Assembly: GCA_002404055.1 (NCBI GenBank)
Contig: DHIZ01000106.1
Location: 4,304-15,222 of the forward strand
DNA: 10,919 nt
Source: Chloroflexi bacterium UBA4733
Lineage (GTDB): Bacteria; Chloroflexota; UBA4733
Reading direction: 5' to 3'
In this document: positions 1,465 through 8,839 of the stretch, piece by piece
Numbering within the stretch: position 1 is the first letter of the stretch
Layout: every line of letters begins with the position of its first letter
Notes under the pieces: generated by a model
Seen by the model: the letters and a program-made list of their open reading frames with translations, nothing else
Database searches by the model: none
What the model was told of the DNA's origin: nothing
Position numbers and translations under genes: made by a program

Positions 1465-2385
1465 ATGAGTCCGGAACTGGTATCCCTCGCGGCTGCCGTC
1501 ACTGCGGCGGCCGGGGTCTTCCTGTTGGTGCTGTCGCGTGCCCAGCCGCGGTCGGTCGACGCAGTGCGCAGCCGCCTGGCGCAATACGCGCCGGCGCCAC
1601 GAAACCTGCGCGAACTGGAGATGAACCGGTCGTTCACCGACCGTGTTGTCAAACCATTGGCGGCGCACCTGGCGTCGACAGTGGCGCGCGTCACGCCGGC
1701 TCGCTCCTACGAGGACATCCGCAAGAAGTTGGTCCTCGCCGGCAACCCGAACGGCATGGTCCCTTCCGACTTCCTGGGGATGCAAGGGCTCAGTCTCCTC
1801 GTGATGGGCCTGTTTGGCCTGTTGTTGTTCGTCATGCTGCGCGCAAGTTCCAGCAAAGCCATCCTCATGGTCGGCGTCTTTTTTCTCTTCGGCTATATGT
1901 ACCCGCGGGCCTGGCTCGACCGCAAAGTCAAGTCGCGCCAGCGCTTGCTCAAGGAGCAGTTGCCGGACTCGCTCGACCTCTTGACGATCATGGTGGAGGC
2001 GGGCCTTGGCTTCGACGCGGCGCTGGCCCGGCTGGTGGACAAGGCGCAAAACGAACTCTCCCAGGAGTTCGCCACGGTCCTGAGCGAGATTCGCCTGGGT
2101 AAGTCACGGCGCGAAGCGCTCCAGCAGCTTGGTCAGCGGACCAATGCGGAAGACATCGCCACCTTCGTGACCTCGTTGGTCCAGGCCGATCAACTGGGGG
2201 TCAGTATCGCTCGTGTCTTGCGGGTCCAATCGGCCCAGATGCGCATCAAGCGCCGGCAACGCGCCGAGGAGGCCGCGCACAAGGCGCCGATCAAGATGCT
2301 CTTTCCTCTGGCCTTCCTCATCTTCCCATCCATGTTCATCATCATTCTCGGCCCGGCGGTGCCCAGCCTGTTGCACGGGCTATGA
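1465..2385 (+). CDS. tadC: TadC-like type II secretion system F domain protein (Tad pilus platform)
   Basis: This is the second inner-membrane platform protein of the Tad/Flp pilus system, 306 residues. The start at 1465 is chosen because GGGAG (1454-1458) lies 6 bases before it and the protein then begins with a hydrophobic helix (about 5-24). The frame is open further upstream to about 1360, but that would overlap tadB and add an arginine/serine-rich stretch unlike the family. Membrane segments lie at about 106-126 and 131-147. The T2SSF domain follows, with LPDSLDLLTIMVEAGLGFDA (166-185), LSEIRLGKSRREAL (206-219) and VQADQLGVSIARVL (239-252). A terminal membrane helix (about 276-300) contains the TadC-like KMLFPLAFLIFPSMFIIILG (277-296). 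No further tad gene follows on this strand, so the cluster ends here or other parts lie upstream. Confidence 0.93.
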   Translation: MSPELVSLAAAVTAAAGVFLLVLSRAQPRSVDAVRSRLAQYAPAPRNLRELEMNRSFTDRVVKPLAAHLASTVARVTPARSYEDIRKKLVLAGNPNGMVPSDFLGMQGLSLLVMGLFGLLLFVMLRASSSKAILMVGVFFLFGYMYPRAWLDRKVKSRQRLLKEQLPDSLDLLTIMVEAGLGFDAALARLVDKAQNELSQEFATVLSEIRLGKSRREALQQLGQRTNAEDIATFVTSLVQADQLGVSIARVLRVQSAQMRIKRRQRAEEAAHKAPIKMLFPLAFLIFPSMFIIILGPAVPSLLHGL

Positions 2386-2484
2386 GGTCGAGCGCTAAAG
2401 TGAAGCCACGACGGGTTCTGCATGGCCTGCTGTATGTGGGCATACTGAACCTGCAGGTATTGGCAACCGATCATCCTGAGCCGC
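2386..2484. other. Spacer after tadC with no recognisable gene
   Basis: About 100 bases lie between the tadC stop and the response-regulator remnant. I see no convincing hairpin with a T-tract and no coding signal on either strand. It may be further decayed sequence from the same disrupted locus. Confidence 0.4.
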
Positions 2485-2650
2485 CTACGGCTTGGCCAGG
2501 CCGTGGTTATAGGCATAGACGACGACCTGACTGCGGTCGGTAGCATCCAGCATCGGCGGGGTCAGCGTCCTTGAGCAGGTAGCCGACGGCGCCGGCCTGC
2601 AACGCCGCCTGCACAAGCGCGTCATCGCCGTAGATAGTTAGCGTGTGGGC
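2485..2650 (-). pseudogene. Remnant of a NarL/LuxR-type response regulator (internal deletion plus frame change)
   Basis: Two pieces of one gene family lie on the minus strand. The upstream piece (about 2650 down to about 2557) reads LTIYGDDALVQAALQAGAVG followed by YLLKDADPAD. This is the classic end of a NarL-family receiver domain, including the conserved lysine of LLKDA. It is joined directly, but in another frame, to LDATDRSQVVVYAYNHGLAK and P-stop (2550 to 2485), which matches the last residues of a LuxR-type HTH domain. Missing are the N-terminal receiver with the phospho-aspartate, and nearly all of the linker and HTH. At the junction (about 2545-2556) GATGCT occurs twice, one base apart, on the minus strand. 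Similarity is judged by eye from family patterns. The pieces are too short to work, so this is a relic and not a gene. Its receiver end runs up to the probable promoter area of the FMN-binding gene. Confidence 0.75.
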
Positions 2651-2683
2651 CAATACATCCCAGCGGGCAGGCTTTACATTGTA

Positions 2684-2726
2684 TTGACACTCCGCTTGCC
2701 CCGGCGTGGCATAGTTATTGTATACA
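2684..2726 (+). promoter_or_regulatory. Possible promoter region of the flavoprotein operon
   Basis: A perfect TTGACA (2684-2689) is the only consensus -35 hexamer noticed in this gap. It is followed by an unusually AT-rich stretch for this window, with TATTGT (2716-2721) and the palindrome TGTATACA (2719-2726). No good -10 sits at 16-18 bases from TTGACA. A weaker pairing is TTGCCC (2696-2701) with TATACA (2721-2726), 19 bases apart. The location 40-80 bases before the first gene fits a promoter; the exact boxes are uncertain. Confidence 0.35.
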
Positions 2727-2755
2727 GGTGGGTGGTGTCGCCGAAACGCAGACGC

Positions 2756-2760
2756 GGAGG
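2756..2760 (+). promoter_or_regulatory. Ribosome binding site of the FMN-binding protein gene
   Basis: GGAGG ends 5 bases before the ATG at 2766. It decides for this start over the in-frame TTG at 2718, which lies upstream of the site. Confidence 0.7.
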
Positions 2761-2765
2761 TACGG

Positions 2766-3428
2766 ATGGCTCGCCGCATGAGTCGTAGGCTGGTCGCACT
2801 CAGCACCGCGGCCATTGCTACAGTGTTCACCGTTGGCTATGTTCACACGCAGCCGGCGGCGGCACGGCTCGCCTCAGCCGACAGTTTTGCTACACCGTCG
2901 GCTAGCGCGACTCCGGGAAACGCACAAACGGTGCAGACTAACGTCAGCAGCACCGGAGCGGCAATCCCAACGCCCACCGTCGTGGTGAGCCCGTCCTTTA
3001 TCCTTCCGCCATTGACAGCGCGCGGGTCGGACGGTGGCGAAGGGGGAGGCGGACGCGAAGGCCGCGATGGCGGCACGCCCCGGCTGTTCCGACCCATTGC
3101 CACACCCACATCCCTGCCGACCCCGAGCAGCCAGACAACCATCACCAGCACGACGCAGGGCGCTCGCTACCTCGACGGCTCGTATAGCGGCATGGCAGAG
3201 AACCGCCACGGCTACGTCCAGGCCACCGTGGTTATTGCCGGGGGACGCATCACCAGGGCAGCGATCTCCGACTGCGGCATGCAATATCCCTGCTCGCGCA
3301 TCGCCATGCTGCCCGGCGAAGTGCTGACCCGCCAGAGCACGGATACCGATCTGATATCGGGCGCCACAATGAGTTCCACGGCGTATCAGGGGGCGGTAGA
3401 GCAAGCCCTGGCGAAGGCCGCCGTGTGA
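2766..3428 (+). CDS. Exported FMN-binding-domain protein with flavinylation motif
   Basis: This 220-residue protein is predicted to carry covalently bound FMN outside the cytoplasm and act as a one-domain electron carrier. A positively charged N-terminus and hydrophobic helix (about 9-25) form a signal peptide or anchor. A long low-complexity linker rich in Ser, Thr, Pro and Gly follows (about 35-130). The FMN-binding domain (the fold shared with NqrC and RnfG) covers about 134-217. It starts at YLDGSYSG and ends with DLISGATMSSTAYQGAVEQA (195-214). In this family the Thr of SGAT, here Thr201, receives FMN through a phosphoester bond made by ApbE. Two cysteines, C170 and C176 (DCGMQYPC), lie in the domain. 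The next gene encodes ApbE and overlaps the stop by 4 bases, which strongly supports flavinylation. Its electron donor and acceptor cannot be read from the sequence. Confidence 0.88.
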   Translation: MARRMSRRLVALSTAAIATVFTVGYVHTQPAAARLASADSFATPSASATPGNAQTVQTNVSSTGAAIPTPTVVVSPSFILPPLTARGSDGGEGGGGREGRDGGTPRLFRPIATPTSLPTPSSQTTITSTTQGARYLDGSYSGMAENRHGYVQATVVIAGGRITRAAISDCGMQYPCSRIAMLPGEVLTRQSTDTDLISGATMSSTAYQGAVEQALAKAAV

Positions 3429-4354
3429 CTGGCGCAGCCCAGGCCTACCCCCAACTCCAGCAGCGTGGGGCGATTGTGATGGACACAGCAGTCAGCGTGC
3501 GGTCAAGTGTGCCATTGCTGGGCGACGAGTTTGAGTCGCTGGCTGATCGCGCCTTTGGCTGGTTTCACACTGTTGAGCGCATCTGCAGCCGCTTCGACCC
3601 GACGAGTGAGGTGATGCACCTGACGGCACAGGCCGGTAGGTCAGTGGCCGTGTCACCGATTTTGTTTGAAGCCGTGCAGTTTGCGCTCGCCGTTGCCGAG
3701 TTGAGCGACGGCGCCTTTGACCCGACAATCGGTCAGACATTGGAGGCACGCGGCTTCAACCGCAACTACCGCACTGGTAACCTCATCGCCACCGAAATGC
3801 CCACCGCTGCGCCAGTAAGCTATCACGATGTCCAACTCGATGACCAGCGTCGTACCATCACGTTACTGCGGCCGCTCATCCTAGACCTGGGGGCGGTCGT
3901 CAAAGGGCTGGCCATTGATCTGGCCGGCAAGGAACTGGCGTCGCTGGGCAGTTTCAGCATAGATGCCGGGGGTGACATCTACGTGGCCGGCCGGAATGAC
4001 ACCGGTGGTCTCTGGCGCGTCGGCATCCGCCACCCACGTTTGCCGCAAGCAGTTGCCGCCGTGCTGCGGGTCACCAACGTCGCGGTCTGTACGTCGGGCG
4101 ATTATGAGCGACCGGCAGCGAGCGGCGGCCACCATATTGTGGATCCGCGCAGTGGCGAATCGCCCGTGGACGTGGCGAGCGTGACGGTCGTCGGGCCGAA
4201 CGCTATGCTGGCCGATGCCTTGTCCACGGCCGCCTTTGTACTCGGTGCGGAACGAGGCCTGCAGTTGCTGGAGAGTCAGGGAGTGGAGGGCCTGTTTCTG
4301 ACCTCCTCACTGGAGAGGCGCATGACGCCGGGAATGCGGGGGTTTCTGGCATGA
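3425..4354 (+). CDS. apbE: ApbE-family FAD:protein FMN transferase
   Basis: The enzyme transfers FMN from FAD to a Thr or Ser of a target protein, releasing AMP and needing Mg2+. The 309-residue protein has the ApbE landmarks in order: SRFDPTSE (55-62), DGAFDPTIG (95-103), LDLGAVVKGLAID (153-165), DAGGDIYVAG (180-189), TSGDYER (223-229), HHIVDPRSG (236-244) and the metal-binding DALSTAAFVLG (264-274). The GTG start at 3425 overlaps the previous stop as GTGA. An alternative ATG at 3479 would cut into the first strand (RGAIVMDTAVSV), so the GTG is preferred. The likely substrate is the SGAT protein encoded just upstream. No signal peptide or lipobox is visible, unlike many ApbE proteins that work outside the membrane; this is discussed in the findings. 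Confidence 0.95.
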   Translation: MTGAAQAYPQLQQRGAIVMDTAVSVRSSVPLLGDEFESLADRAFGWFHTVERICSRFDPTSEVMHLTAQAGRSVAVSPILFEAVQFALAVAELSDGAFDPTIGQTLEARGFNRNYRTGNLIATEMPTAAPVSYHDVQLDDQRRTITLLRPLILDLGAVVKGLAIDLAGKELASLGSFSIDAGGDIYVAGRNDTGGLWRVGIRHPRLPQAVAAVLRVTNVAVCTSGDYERPAASGGHHIVDPRSGESPVDVASVTVVGPNAMLADALSTAAFVLGAERGLQLLESQGVEGLFLTSSLERRMTPGMRGFLA

Positions 4355-5205
4355 CGGTTGCAGCGCAACAACCGCAATGGCGGAAGTTCAAGCTGTTCGC
4401 GCGTTCCCCAAAAGGCCTCATGCTCTGGGTGCTCCTGCTGCTCGCCGTGCTGGCAGCGCCGGCGGAGGGACCACACCGCGTCGTTGCGACGATCCTGGTG
4501 GCCCTGGCCGGCGCCGCGATCGTGGATGTGCTGGTCGCCAGCATCGAACAGGGACACTTCGTCTTCCCCACCAGCTCGCTCTTGACCGGCCTCTTCGTCG
4601 CCCTTCTGCTGAGTCCGACCGAGCCCTGGTACACCGTCGCCGCGGCAGCCATCCTGGCAGTCTGCTCCAAGCATCTTTTGCGGACCCGGCGCTGGACGGT
4701 GTTCAACCCCGCCGCTGTCGGACTGCTGGTGGTGGCGCTGCTCTTCGCCAGCAGCGAAAGCTGGTGGGGATCGTTGCCGGACCTGCCAGGCGCGCTCTTG
4801 CTCGTACTGGCGCTGTCGGGCGCCTGGATCGTCGACAAGGTCAACAAGTGGCCGCAAACCCTGGCCTTCCTGGCGACGTTCTACCTGCTCTTCACCGTCG
4901 CATCCTTTATGGACAGCTCCCCGCTGGTCATCGAGGCCTTTCGCGTCCCTTACCTGAACACGGCGATCTTTTTTGCCGCCTTTATGCTGTCGGACCCGCC
5001 AACCTCGCCAGCGCACTATCGGGAGCAGCTTATCTATGGGGCCGGCGTCGCTGCGCTGAGCTTTGTGGTGCAACTGGCATTTCACCCACAGTACTTCTTG
5101 CTGGCCGGCCTATTGGTTGGCAACGGTGTGTTCGCCTGGTGGCGGTCCCGCCCGACGCGGCGGACGGCGCTGGCGGCGCGAAGGCTGGCCACCGCCTCAC
5201 GATAA
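4351..5205 (+). CDS. Stand-alone NqrB/RnfD-like membrane protein
   Basis: This 284-residue polytopic membrane protein has about ten hydrophobic segments (roughly 20-38, 44-65, 75-89, 93-110, 117-135, 144-161, 167-186, 201-216, 228-245 and 249-265). It resembles the NqrB/RnfD family, the core membrane subunits of Na+-NQR and Rnf. Matching features are SSLLTGLFVALLLSP (75-89), the FNPAAVG motif that follows a membrane-proximal basic stretch, and FMLSDPPTSP, which corresponds to the family's TDPVTSP. An IYG motif and a terminal helix with a conserved Asn (LLVGNGVF) follow. It is shorter than typical NqrB/RnfD, and the extracytoplasmic part bearing the SGAT flavin site is absent. The start overlaps the apbE stop as ATGA. 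A role in passing electrons across the membrane to or from the exported flavoprotein is inferred. Cofactors and direction are unknown. Confidence 0.85.
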   Translation: MTVAAQQPQWRKFKLFARSPKGLMLWVLLLLAVLAAPAEGPHRVVATILVALAGAAIVDVLVASIEQGHFVFPTSSLLTGLFVALLLSPTEPWYTVAAAAILAVCSKHLLRTRRWTVFNPAAVGLLVVALLFASSESWWGSLPDLPGALLLVLALSGAWIVDKVNKWPQTLAFLATFYLLFTVASFMDSSPLVIEAFRVPYLNTAIFFAAFMLSDPPTSPAHYREQLIYGAGVAALSFVVQLAFHPQYFLLAGLLVGNGVFAWWRSRPTRRTALAARRLATASR

Positions 5206-5439
5206 GGGACACGATTTCTCATGCCAGGCAGCCGTCGATTAGTACCCTCTCCTGCCTGCTCTTGCCGTCACCCGCGGCATCCCGTACTCTGAGATGGGAG
5301 GATAACCAAACGGCCGCCCAGCCGTTGGACGGAAGAGTGGTACGGCTTGTGCGTTAACACCGACAGGGGCCTGGAGAAAGCAAGAGAGGAGTGTTCGGCC
5401 GGATTGTCAAAGGTACCCCTCCGGCAGAACAACACAGCA
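5206..5439. other. Intergenic region before the L,D-transpeptidase gene
   Basis: These 234 bases hold no gene that I can support. A possible sigma70-like pair is listed separately. Other items are a small hairpin with 6-base arms (AACGGC 5309-5314 and GCCGTT 5321-5326), and a purine-rich GAGAGGAG (5383-5390) lying 13 bases before an in-frame TTG at 5404. I see no known riboswitch pattern. Confidence 0.5.
5262..5290 (+). promoter_or_regulatory. Weak sigma70-like promoter candidate
   Basis: TTGCCG (5262-5267) and TACTCT (5285-5290) are separated by exactly 17 bases, upstream of the L,D-transpeptidase gene. Each hexamer matches the consensus only partly, so the call rests on spacing and position. 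Confidence 0.25.
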
Positions 5440-6297
5440 ATGCAACGACGAATCTTCTTGAAAATGGCCGCCGGGTTGCCGGCGGCATGGGTGGCCGCGC
5501 AGGCGGCGCCGGCCTTTGCCGACAGTAAGATCGTGGAGCAGGGCGGTCAGTACGTCAGTACGTACACGGCCGGCCCCGCCACCGGCTGGACCGGCTATAC
5601 GAATGCCGGTGGCGCCGGTTACACCTACGTCTATCTGTTTAGCGGCCCGAGTTCCCAGACGACGTGGATTGCCAACGTTCCCGTCAACGTGCCGGTAATC
5701 GTGAACGCCTACGCGCCAGGCGAAATACTGGCGCCGCCAAATCCGCTCTGGTACAACATCAGTACCATCCAGGGCGACGGCTGGGTATATTCGGGGCTGA
5801 TCAGCAACGCTCCCCCGGTTTCGTTACCGGCCTCGGCGGTGGCGCTGCCGCCAGGGCCTATCCCGGCGCCCATCGGCTCCGGCCGTTCCATTGGCGTGTC
5901 CCTGTCCCGTCAGCACCTCTGGGCCTACGACAACGGTGTCGTCGTTTGGGACGCTGACGTCACCACCGGCGAACCGCTCAAGCCGACCCCGACGGGCATC
6001 TTTACTATCGAAATGAAGATCCCCAAGTTCAAGTTCATTTCGCCATTTCCTCCCGGTTCCTCGCTCTGGTATCCAGACTCGCCCACGCACTACGCCTTAC
6101 AGTTCCGCGGCGACGGCTACTACATCCACGACGCGCCCTGGCGGCCGTATTATGGTCCAGGCACCAATTTTCCGCACATGGATCTGGACGGCACGGTGCG
6201 CGCCGGCTCTCACGGCTGCGTCAACACCATGTTGTCAACTATCGAGTTTCTGGCGCCCTGGACGCCGCTGGGTGCGCCGGTCAATATTATCGACTGA
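5440..6297 (+). CDS. L,D-transpeptidase (YkuD domain) with twin-arginine signal
   Basis: YkuD-domain enzymes cross-link peptidoglycan stem peptides or attach proteins to them, using a cysteine nucleophile outside the membrane. From the ATG at 5440 the protein has 285 residues. It begins MQRRIFLKMAAGLPAAWVAA, a Tat-type signal (RRxFLK, hydrophobic core, cleavage near AFA-DS, about 27-29). A small SH3-like region follows (about 75-122, with LWYNISTIQGDGWVYSGLI), then a Pro/Ala linker and the YkuD domain (about 149-284). Catalytic features are YIHDAPW with His230, and AGSHGCVNT with His258 and Cys260. The ribosome site is poor at this ATG. An in-frame TTG at 5404 has GAGAGGAG 13 bases upstream and would add 12 residues before the Tat motif, so the start is not certain. 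It follows the flavoprotein operon by 234 bases and probably has its own promoter. Confidence 0.92.
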   Translation: MQRRIFLKMAAGLPAAWVAAQAAPAFADSKIVEQGGQYVSTYTAGPATGWTGYTNAGGAGYTYVYLFSGPSSQTTWIANVPVNVPVIVNAYAPGEILAPPNPLWYNISTIQGDGWVYSGLISNAPPVSLPASAVALPPGPIPAPIGSGRSIGVSLSRQHLWAYDNGVVVWDADVTTGEPLKPTPTGIFTIEMKIPKFKFISPFPPGSSLWYPDSPTHYALQFRGDGYYIHDAPWRPYYGPGTNFPHMDLDGTVRAGSHGCVNTMLSTIEFLAPWTPLGAPVNIID

Positions 6298-6445: not shown

Positions 6446-8839
6446 TTGACTTCGCTCCCTCGCCGGGTCACAGCTCACCTGGCATCTTCCTTGTGCGTGC
6501 TTGGCGTCCTCGTTGCCACGCTCGTTTCACCCTCGGCAGGGGCGGCAATTGCCCTTGGTGGCCTATCGACGATAGGCCCATCTCAGCAAGTGGTAACCAG
6601 CGCGGCCGCGGCGAACAGCGACCCATTGAAGTCCTACCGCGCCGCACACCCGGAGGCGAGCTGGCCGCACTGGTTGACCGACCACCGGCTCGCCTGGGCT
6701 ACTGTTGGTCTGGCCGGCGGCGGGACCGAGGGCTTGGTTGCCACCGACGGCACGCTCTCGCCCAACGGCAACCGCTTCGGCATCAGCCTGTGGCTGCGCG
6801 ATGACCAGAGCGGCGTCCTCTACGTGCCGCAACTCGATCAGGTGACGCAGTCCCTGGCAAACGGCGACCTGCCGCTCATCACGACTCGCTGGTCGGTCGA
6901 CGGCGCCACCCTCACCACCACCGTCTTCGCGGCGTCGGATGCTCGGGACCCGTCCGCTCCCGGCTCGTCCGACGCACGCCGGGTCTTCCTGCAGACGACG
7001 CTCAGCGCCGGCGGCACGCCGCGTCCCTGGACGCTGTACGTGGCCCTGCGCCCCTTCGGTCCCGCCGGAGGCTCGACGCTGCTGCACAGCGCAGCGGCAA
7101 GCACATCGTCACTCAGTGTCGATGGCTCACTGGTGCTGGTCGCTCAGACCGTCGCCAGTCGGGCCGGCGCCTTGAACGAGACGGCTGTTGACGCCTCTGT
7201 TGTGGCAAAAGCGGGCGGCATTCCGCCGCAACAGGCGGTCACCAGCGCCAGCGGCCTGGCCGAAGCGCTGCTCGCCTACGACCTGCAACTTGGCAGCGGA
7301 CAAACAGCCACCTATGCCTTTGTGCTGCCCATGCAGCCCACACCGCCGTCGCCAACAACCATTGACACGCTCCAGCACCTTGATGTCGGCATGCTACGGC
7401 AGAACGTCAGCGCCGCGTGGCAGGCACGCCTGCACCACGTGCAGGTCACGGTAGGCGACCCGCGCATCCAGAACGCCTTTTACGCCTCGCTTGCCTATAT
7501 CCTCATGGCGCAGCAGGCCAATGGTGAGATATTCTCCGGACCGCTCAGCGAACGCGCCTTCTGGTTTCGCGACGCCGCCTACATCACCAACGCGCTGGAC
7601 GAGGCCGGCTACCAGAGCAACGTTCGCGACATCCTGCGCTTGGTCGCTTCGACCCAACTGCCGTCCGGCCGCTACCCGCCCATCATCACGGCCGCCGGCA
7701 GTCCCCAGTTGCCGCTGAAGACGGAATGGGATACCCAGGGCGAGGTCATCTTTTCGCTGGTCAACTACGCCCAGCAGAACCACGATCTCGCCTTCCTGCA
7801 CGATGTCTACCCAGGCATCTGGGCGGCGACACGCTACCAGGAGTCACAGCTCGCGGCGACGCGGATTCCGGCATTGCAGGGGACGCCCTTCTTCGGCATC
7901 CTGCCGGCCGGGGAGAGCGCCGAAGACCTCTATAGCGCCGACTGGCATCACTACTGGGACGACTTCTGGGCTATGGCGGGCTTCCAACAGGCGGCGGCAG
8001 CAGCCCAGATGCTCGGCTTCAACGGCGACGTGGGCCGGCTGACCGGCGACGAGCAGGCGCTACGCAGCGCCACCATCGCCAGCGTCAATAGCAGCTTACC
8101 GCCAGATAAGCGGGCCGTCATCTCCAACGGACCAGAAGACCGCTCCACGACAGCGATGGCGCGCAGCGGGACGCCCTCGATCTGGCCCGTAGAGGTGCTC
8201 AATCCCGGCAGCGAGCTGGTGCAGCACAGTTTTGACACCTATTACATCTGGGACATTAAGCCCTACGGCGGCGCCTATCAGCACTACAACGACCACTACT
8301 GGCCCTTCGCCGGCATCAGCCTGGCCCATGCCTTCTACCGCCTGGGCATGATGGCGCACACCGAACAGATCCTGGAGTGGACGCTCAGCCACCAGACGGC
8401 GCCCAACCTCTACGCCTGGGCCGACATCGTCGATCCGACGACATCCAGCCTAGCCCTGGGCGACATGCCGCACAACTGGATGGCCGCCGAGATGATCCTG
8501 TTGATTCGCGACATGCTGGTACGGGAAGCGGGGCAGGCCATCGCCATCGGCCCGATGCCGGAAGGCTGGCTGCCACCCGGCGGCACGGTGTCGATCAGCG
8601 ACTTCCCGACCGCGCTCGGCAGCCAGAGCTACCGCCTGACGCGCTCCGCCGATGGCGTCACGCTGCACTTGACGTTCAGCGGCAGCCCTCCGCCCGGCGG
8701 CTACGTATTCCAGGTCTCCGACGCCCTGGCCGCGCAGAGCTACGCGATTGACGGCGGACCAATGCAGGGTGCCACAAGCGACACGATCACCCTGCCCGCC
8801 GGCGCAAGAAGCGTGACGGTGCGCGTGGCGACGCGATGA
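6446..8839 (+). CDS. Exported six-hairpin (alpha/alpha)6 glycosidase-like protein
   Basis: This 797-residue protein has an N-terminal signal peptide (basic residues, hydrophobic core about 11-35, cleavage near the Ala-rich stretch). An N-terminal beta-rich region (about 80-300) is followed by a helical catalytic-type domain (about 335-690) and a short beta C-terminal region (about 705-797). The middle resembles six-hairpin glycosidases such as glucoamylase and trehalase relatives. It has AFWFRDAAYITNALDEAGY (371-389), TEWDTQGEV (426-434), a Trp/His/Asp-rich HHYWDDFWAM (501-510) and HYNDHYWPFAGISLAHAFYR further on. Asp429 or Glu433 are candidate acidic catalytic residues, but I cannot assign them or a substrate. 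The TTG start at 6446 has GAGG (6433-6436) 9 bases upstream and no better in-frame codon; the signal peptide then starts at once. No transporter or sugar-pathway gene lies nearby, so a role in polysaccharide breakdown or remodelling outside the cell is only inferred. Confidence 0.82.
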   Translation: MTSLPRRVTAHLASSLCVLGVLVATLVSPSAGAAIALGGLSTIGPSQQVVTSAAAANSDPLKSYRAAHPEASWPHWLTDHRLAWATVGLAGGGTEGLVATDGTLSPNGNRFGISLWLRDDQSGVLYVPQLDQVTQSLANGDLPLITTRWSVDGATLTTTVFAASDARDPSAPGSSDARRVFLQTTLSAGGTPRPWTLYVALRPFGPAGGSTLLHSAAASTSSLSVDGSLVLVAQTVASRAGALNETAVDASVVAKAGGIPPQQAVTSASGLAEALLAYDLQLGSGQTATYAFVLPMQPTPPSPTTIDTLQHLDVGMLRQNVSAAWQARLHHVQVTVGDPRIQNAFYASLAYILMAQQANGEIFSGPLSERAFWFRDAAYITNALDEAGYQSNVRDILRLVASTQLPSGRYPPIITAAGSPQLPLKTEWDTQGEVIFSLVNYAQQNHDLAFLHDVYPGIWAATRYQESQLAATRIPALQGTPFFGILPAGESAEDLYSADWHHYWDDFWAMAGFQQAAAAAQMLGFNGDVGRLTGDEQALRSATIASVNSSLPPDKRAVISNGPEDRSTTAMARSGTPSIWPVEVLNPGSELVQHSFDTYYIWDIKPYGGAYQHYNDHYWPFAGISLAHAFYRLGMMAHTEQILEWTLSHQTAPNLYAWADIVDPTTSSLALGDMPHNWMAAEMILLIRDMLVREAGQAIAIGPMPEGWLPPGGTVSISDFPTALGSQSYRLTRSADGVTLHLTFSGSPPPGGYVFQVSDALAAQSYAIDGGPMQGATSDTITLPAGARSVTVRVATR

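Follow-up and report, generated by a model that had tools for sequence, protein, structure and literature searches.

A lone NqrB/RnfD-like membrane protein encoded with an FMN_bind protein and ApbE: a candidate minimal flavin electron-transfer module

The closest described relatives of the genes discussed here are the NQR/RNF-like systems, defined by Meheust 2021 as having a membrane protein of family PF03116 with a C-terminal PF00175 domain and represented there by 127 clusters (PMC8238504). One such pair, from Ktedonobacter racemifer, has been modelled, and its membrane protein is described as missing the threonine that bears flavin mononucleotide (FMN) (PMC11334425). We analyzed a stretch of 10,919 nucleotides (the window) from Chloroflexi bacterium UBA4733, contig DHIZ01000106.1, in which three overlapping genes encode an FMN_bind protein (F), the flavin adenine dinucleotide (FAD):protein FMN transferase ApbE (A), and a lone NqrB/RnfD-like membrane protein (R). 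We consider it probable, with real room for doubt, that F and R together make up a transmembrane electron wire with two flavins and that A matures F.

The coordinates of the three genes and both four-base overlaps given in an original prediction, made from the sequence alone, were confirmed (Table 1). In a Pfam scan F, A, and R each matched a single family and nothing further, and the other genes of the window included no second Nqr or Rnf subunit, cytochrome, or Fe-S protein, in agreement with that prediction. R had no match to the nicotinamide adenine dinucleotide (NAD)-binding domain PF00175 and ends after its membrane domain; as positive controls, the domain was matched in the fused loci L105 (2.9e-15), L109 (3e-18), L108 (5.4e-17), and L111 (9.2e-20), while the frame of a fifth fused locus, L110, ends early. 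Because R lacks the domain by which NQR/RNF-like systems are defined, the window module is a variant of that kind and not a member of it. The original prediction held that flavinylation clusters with NqrB/RnfD-like proteins were known in principle; a close relative has indeed been published (PMC8238504, PMC11334425), but its NAD-binding fusion is absent here.

A protein search listed 72 proteins, among them that of the window, and every one has PF03116; one from Chloroflexota (P0014) is a partial protein with 93% identity. For the comparison of loci we took the best 80 of 285 relatives from a scan of the genome collection, giving 81 loci with the window, and built profiles of F, A, and R from the window and the fetched loci. 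By record title the relatives belong to the Chloroflexota (20), Gemmatimonadota (23), Acidobacteria (7), Opitutae (6), Bacillota (23), and Gammaproteobacteria (1). Co-oriented F-A-R genes on one strand were found in 69 of the 81 loci, and this conserved order is more than chance; a genome search for it had been proposed in the original prediction. The other 12 loci have F-R without A (nine), R only (two), or A-R (one, where the contig begins inside A), and for eight of the nine F-R loci the genome encodes an ApbE at another place. No ApbE was found in G029, the draft genome of the ninth, or in that of the R-only locus L036 (G327). Among 150 genomes sampled from the phylum to which G004 (a Gemmatimonadetes record) belongs, 15 matched the R profile strongly, with E under 1e-100.

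The original prediction named homologues always lying inside full nqr or rnf operons as the observation that would count against it. No nqr or rnf operon was seen around the fetched modules, and in the 22 Bacillota genomes searched (all but that of L080) the only PF03116 proteins are lone R proteins, with a single gene in 21 genomes and a second one in G312, where one copy is F-A-R and the other F-R. FMN_bind is confined to F in 21 of these genomes, and the module ApbE is the sole ApbE in seven of the 22. True Rnf does occur in the phylum of G001, where PF03116 matches were present in 62 of 301 sampled genomes: five fetched loci (L085-L089) had NCBIfam matches above cut-off, to rnfD in L085, L086, L087, and L089, to rnfC in L085, L088, and L089, and to rnfG and rnfE in L085.

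The structure model of R has ten long helices and the RnfD/NqrB fold. Its nearest NCBIfam family is rnfD (TIGR01946), at 49.3 bits against a cut-off of 207; the true RnfDs of L085, L086, L087, and L089 reach 258-317 bits. Three of the four side chains that bind riboflavin in NqrB are aligned and kept in R (Table 1), and R may bind riboflavin. The locus scan partly selects for the FNPAA and DPPTSP motifs that hold two of the three, and both motifs are also invariant across the 28-row alignment A1. A conserved tryptophan pair lies in what is probably the outer loop that bears the FMN threonine in NqrB and RnfD, and L105 and L110, both NAD-fused relatives, likewise have the SWW sequence. The window R has no covalent-FMN threonine in an [ST]GA[ST] motif. 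That string occurs in three of the 81 R proteins, twice away from the FMN loop and once at the edge of the part searched. The original description of R as an NqrB/RnfD-type subunit is upheld for the fold, and to it is added that R has no flavinylated threonine.

F is modelled as an N-terminal membrane helix, a long low-confidence or disordered linker rich in proline, threonine, serine, alanine, glutamine, and glycine, and a confident C-terminal FMN_bind domain whose strands and helices lie between residues 138 and 219, with a predicted local distance difference test score of about 95. The best Foldseek matches of this domain are the FMN domains 8p2a and 8p2b of SaFMN3 and CbFMN4, proteins demonstrated to bear covalent FMN (PMC10339131). 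In the model the last helix begins at Thr201 of the S-G-A-T motif. The pattern [ST]GA[ST].[ST] is present in 72 of 78 F proteins, and the remaining six have AGAT, SRAT, or SGST with the threonine kept. The window protein (DLISGAT) also matches the longer pattern D-x-x-[ST]-G-A-[ST], of which the aspartate occurs in 53 of the 78 proteins and is missing from 19. Judged from the motif, Thr201 would carry the FMN. Of the 78 F proteins, 44 have two cysteines in the FMN domain, at the positions of window residues 170 and 176, while 12 have one of them and 22 none.

The helix motif of F could be located in 65 of the 78 proteins, and for these the lysines and arginines before and after the helix were counted in equal windows. 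There are more before the helix in all 16 Chloroflexota proteins (the window's counted) and all 21 Bacillota proteins with the motif, so that in these two phyla F is predicted to be N-in/C-out, with an outward-facing domain.

Table 1. Coordinates of the module, its sites, and genes adjoining it in other loci (window positions unless a locus is named)
Feature	Position	Strand	Detail
F (FMN_bind gene)	2766..3428	+	ATG 2766 to TGA 3428; 220 residues; PF04205 E 2.4e-5
A (ApbE, FAD:protein FMN transferase)	3425..4354	+	GTG 3425 to TGA 4354; 309 residues; PF02424 E 3.2e-61
R (lone NqrB/RnfD-like membrane protein)	4351..5205	+	ATG 4351 to TGA 5205; 284 residues; PF03116 (NQR2_RnfD_RnfE) E 6.3e-18
GTGA overlap, F stop / ApbE start	3425..3428	+	read from sequence
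ATGA overlap, ApbE stop / R start	4351..4354	+	read from sequence
Membrane helix of F	2784..2888	+	residues 7-41 of model
S-G-A-T flavinylation motif of F	3357..3368	+	residues 198-201; putative acceptor Thr201
R Thr79	4585..4587	+	aligned with riboflavin-binding Thr162 of NqrB (HMMER alignment with 9lrr_B); T 68, S 12, C 1 of 81
R Asn119 in FNPAA	4705..4707	+	aligned with riboflavin-binding Asn203 of NqrB; 81/81
R Trp138-Trp139	4762..4767	+	outer loop bearing FMN threonine in NqrB/RnfD (probable position); 81/81
R Asp215 in DPPTSP	4993..4995	+	aligned with riboflavin-binding Asp346 of NqrB; 81/81
Response regulator and histidine kinase, example	L046:4535-6476 and equivalents		adjoins module
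Small membrane protein with several conserved histidines	L062:3983-4534, L068:8823-9377, L069:8861-9415, L070:3919-4467, L079:3879-4514		

Family membership, fold, conserved sites, and gene order, as established from sequence and models, are consistent with the following mechanism. R would bind a riboflavin non-covalently toward the cytoplasm, and the FMN on Thr201 of F would dock in R's outer cavity, at the place of the covalent FMN in NqrB and RnfD. Electrons could then pass between the riboflavin of R and the FMN of F, and the other Rnf and Nqr subunits (the ion-pump core and the parts handling NADH or ferredoxin) would not be used. ApbE would probably act from the cytosol, attaching the FMN while the C-terminal domain of F has not yet been exported. 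By analogy with the NAD-fused sister system we consider outward flow more likely, with an acceptor outside the cell and, as donor, a reductase in the cytosol or the quinone pool, encoded at another place in the genome; inward flow, the direction of RnfD and NqrB in their complexes, is also possible. Of the minimal transmembrane redox system originally predicted, the minimal F and R unit stands, and its electron transfer we still infer.

Several observations weigh against this mechanism. Given the potential of menaquinone, outward flow from menaquinol to an FMN at -184 mV would be uphill. This value is that of the related FMN protein SaFMN3 (PMC10339131). The fourth riboflavin side chain, Asn200 of NqrB, corresponds to T116 in the window, and its position is N in 46, P in 22, H in 11, T in one, and Q in one of the 81 R proteins. 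Only about 19 residues, with one short helix, precede the first long helix of R, which leaves little room for the extra N-terminal quinone-site helices described for NqrB (PMC12174285). The topology of F is ambiguous outside the Chloroflexota and Bacillota, where 28 proteins divide into 12 N-in, 14 N-out, and two ties. No conserved donor gene adjoins the module, and R itself has no NAD-binding domain. Among individual genomes, no ApbE at all was found in G029, the draft genome of the F-R locus L075, and Paenibacillus cymbidii (L061, G313) keeps R with neither F nor ApbE beside it and has no FMN_bind protein in its genome.

The donor would be fixed if the module works as an NQR/RNF-like system in which a separate NAD(P)H reductase replaces the fused domain. 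This explanation overlaps with the wire that we prefer, and we regard it as possible though doubtful. The F-A-R order does occur in the NAD-fused loci L105, L108, L110, and L111 of the phylum of G001 (L109 has no ApbE match between F and R), and the SWW loop and the missing FMN threonine are common to both kinds (PMC11334425). However, PF00175 is found neither in R nor beside it in the window, and P20-K21 and R198, kept in all 81 lone R proteins, were not seen in the sequences of the fused L105 and L110. A phylogenetic tree of 46 rows (37 of the 81 lone R, four fused, and five Rnf) separated the groups, with the fused proteins on their own branch (100/100) and the lone proteins on one side with weak support (62/41); long branches meet in it.

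The ApbE of the window is most similar among solved chains to 7esa_A (3.6e-33), and besides its PF02424 match it has the conserved histidine, His237, found in 69 of 70 rows with one gap. ApbE is typically, though not universally, an exported lipoprotein, and ApbEs without a signal are known for cytosolic targets (PMC12052999). By hydropathy the window ApbE has no hydrophobic N-terminus and does not resemble an exported lipoprotein; among the flavinylation genes of the window, a membrane helix is seen in the model of F and none is visible in ApbE. The start of ApbE was visible in 67 of the 69 F-A-R loci, the frames of L008 and L049 being broken. In these 67 the ApbE domain begins 4.7-33 residues (median 9.7) past the F stop, the top 12-residue hydropathy within the 40 residues before the domain is 2.07, with four loci reaching 1.6, and an export signal was seen in none. 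This measure does detect signals, since four Rnf-linked ApbEs from the same phylum (L172-L175, with rnfD on the same contig) score 3.0-3.5 and have clear lipoprotein-like signals; in a fifth Rnf genome (L179) ApbE is cut by the contig end and was left out. No signal was seen in nine non-module ApbEs from Bacillota genomes (L134, L136-L143), and the ApbEs of the NAD-fused loci have no hydrophobic N-terminus either, though there the profile match begins late.

A signal-less ApbE beside an F predicted to face outward makes the original claim, of an ApbE attaching FMN to an exported domain, a topological puzzle; the missing signal had not been noted in the original prediction. The Listeria FAD exporter subunit EetB (PMC9973259) was above cut-off in none of the 22 Bacillota genomes, with one weak match containing stops in G322. 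The FMN may be attached in the cytosol before the F domain is exported; ApbE is able to label motifs of only seven residues (PMC12052999). The alternative is that the flavin domain of F stays in the cytosol with ApbE and that electrons reach R from inside, with nothing extracytosolic involved. We consider this unlikely. It would account for the lack of a signal in all 67 assessable ApbEs and for the 14 of 28 F proteins with more lysine and arginine after the helix, but not for the uniform N-in/C-out prediction in Chloroflexota and Bacillota or for the long linker, and the homologous domains of RnfG and NqrC lie outside (PMC9588780, PMC9325719).

It is more improbable still that R, with a fold like that of Amt or urea channels, is a flavin transporter supplying FAD for the maturation of F and not an electron carrier. 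That the module is what survives of a degenerated rnf or nqr operon, with two of six subunit types left, can be dismissed almost entirely, as its order and residues are conserved over six phyla, contradicting decay, and the 22 genomes have no other PF03116 gene.

If the two-flavin wire formed by F and R is real, it would employ the RnfD/NqrB fold in a very small system, and an RnfD/NqrB-type subunit that persists without an ion pump would allow electron transfer to be studied apart from pumping. More tentatively, the module may represent a widespread class of stand-alone transmembrane flavin wires outside the published definitions consulted, in which a signal-less ApbE attaches FMN in the cytosol, the F domain is then exported, and neither a FAD exporter nor another Rnf or Nqr subunit is needed. 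Covalent attachment of FMN before export would alter the view of how exported flavoproteins mature. Cultivable Bacillota carry the module, mostly in single copy and with no other NqrB/RnfD-family gene, which offers a clean test by gene removal. We found no description of an F-A-R module with a lone RnfD in the open-access literature consulted; the supplementary tables of PMC8238504, which were not covered, could list it.

The original prediction also called for a list of conserved neighbors; none stood out outside the Bacillota, whereas 12 of the 23 Bacillota loci have an OmpR-type response regulator and a histidine kinase within 1.5 kilobases of the module and none of the 57 others does, several contigs being short. 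Expression of the module in Bacillota may thus be signal-controlled. In five Paenibacillus loci a small related membrane protein with several conserved histidines is beside the module or the two-component genes. Its Pfam matches are weak, below cut-off, and different between the five copies (cytochrome b561 in L068, DUF4405 or DUF3792 in three, none in L069), and we do not claim it as a haem partner, although it could be one.

In the window the module is preceded by Tad/type II secretion pilus-assembly genes and followed by a YkuD L,D-transpeptidase, a protein of 797 residues (6446-8839, + strand), and then guaA and a purD end on the opposite strand. The 797-residue protein has no Pfam match and a weak match (9.6e-9), far under cut-off, to an oligosaccharide amylase model. 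A short frame at 2507-2830 (- strand) looks like a gene remnant; over 30 residues it weakly matches the terminal part of a response-regulator receiver domain, below cut-off at E 0.0075. The window contained no tRNAs and no Rfam match at gathering score; a scan of 2380-5500 gave no promoter-like signals and three terminator-like signals against 1.9 expected, which is uninformative. Among homologues of R, P0040 (479 residues) is extended at its C-terminus by a hydrophobic stretch and contains a part with no Pfam assignment, and P0068 (40% identical) has the source name enediyne biosynthesis protein E5, which suggests that lone RnfD-like proteins also serve in natural-product clusters. In the sample from the phylum of G001, the PF03116 proteins of L090-L096, L099-L103, L106, L107, and L113 had no module F or ApbE profile match within about 1.5 kilobases; the neighbors of five such loci were scanned, and a sortilin/BNR-repeat gene adjoins L090 and L096. 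Four pattern matches to R in a viral collection were all unrelated.

Compared with known systems, the module is closest to the NQR/RNF-like kind, with which it shares the clustering of an FMN_bind gene, ApbE, and a PF03116 membrane protein, the F-A-R order of four of the five fetched fused loci, and a membrane protein described there too as without the covalent-FMN threonine (PMC11334425); it differs in that the window R is without PF00175 and that the lone family has its own P20-K21 and R198. With the RNF complex it shares the RnfD fold of R and, in F, the RnfG layout, a single membrane helix plus an FMN domain whose last helix begins with the threonine (PMC9588780), but the window has only D- and G-like genes and no RnfA, B, C, or E, R has no FMN threonine, and the module ApbE is without the lipoprotein-like signal of the four Rnf-linked ApbEs. 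Three of the four NqrB riboflavin-site side chains link R to Na+-NQR, with its NqrB and NqrC, whereas no other Nqr subunit is present and the stretch before the first long helix of R leaves little room for the extra NqrB helices. SaFMN3 and CbFMN4 are described as having three or four FMN domains in place of the one in F (PMC10339131), and they are the closest solved structures to the F domain.
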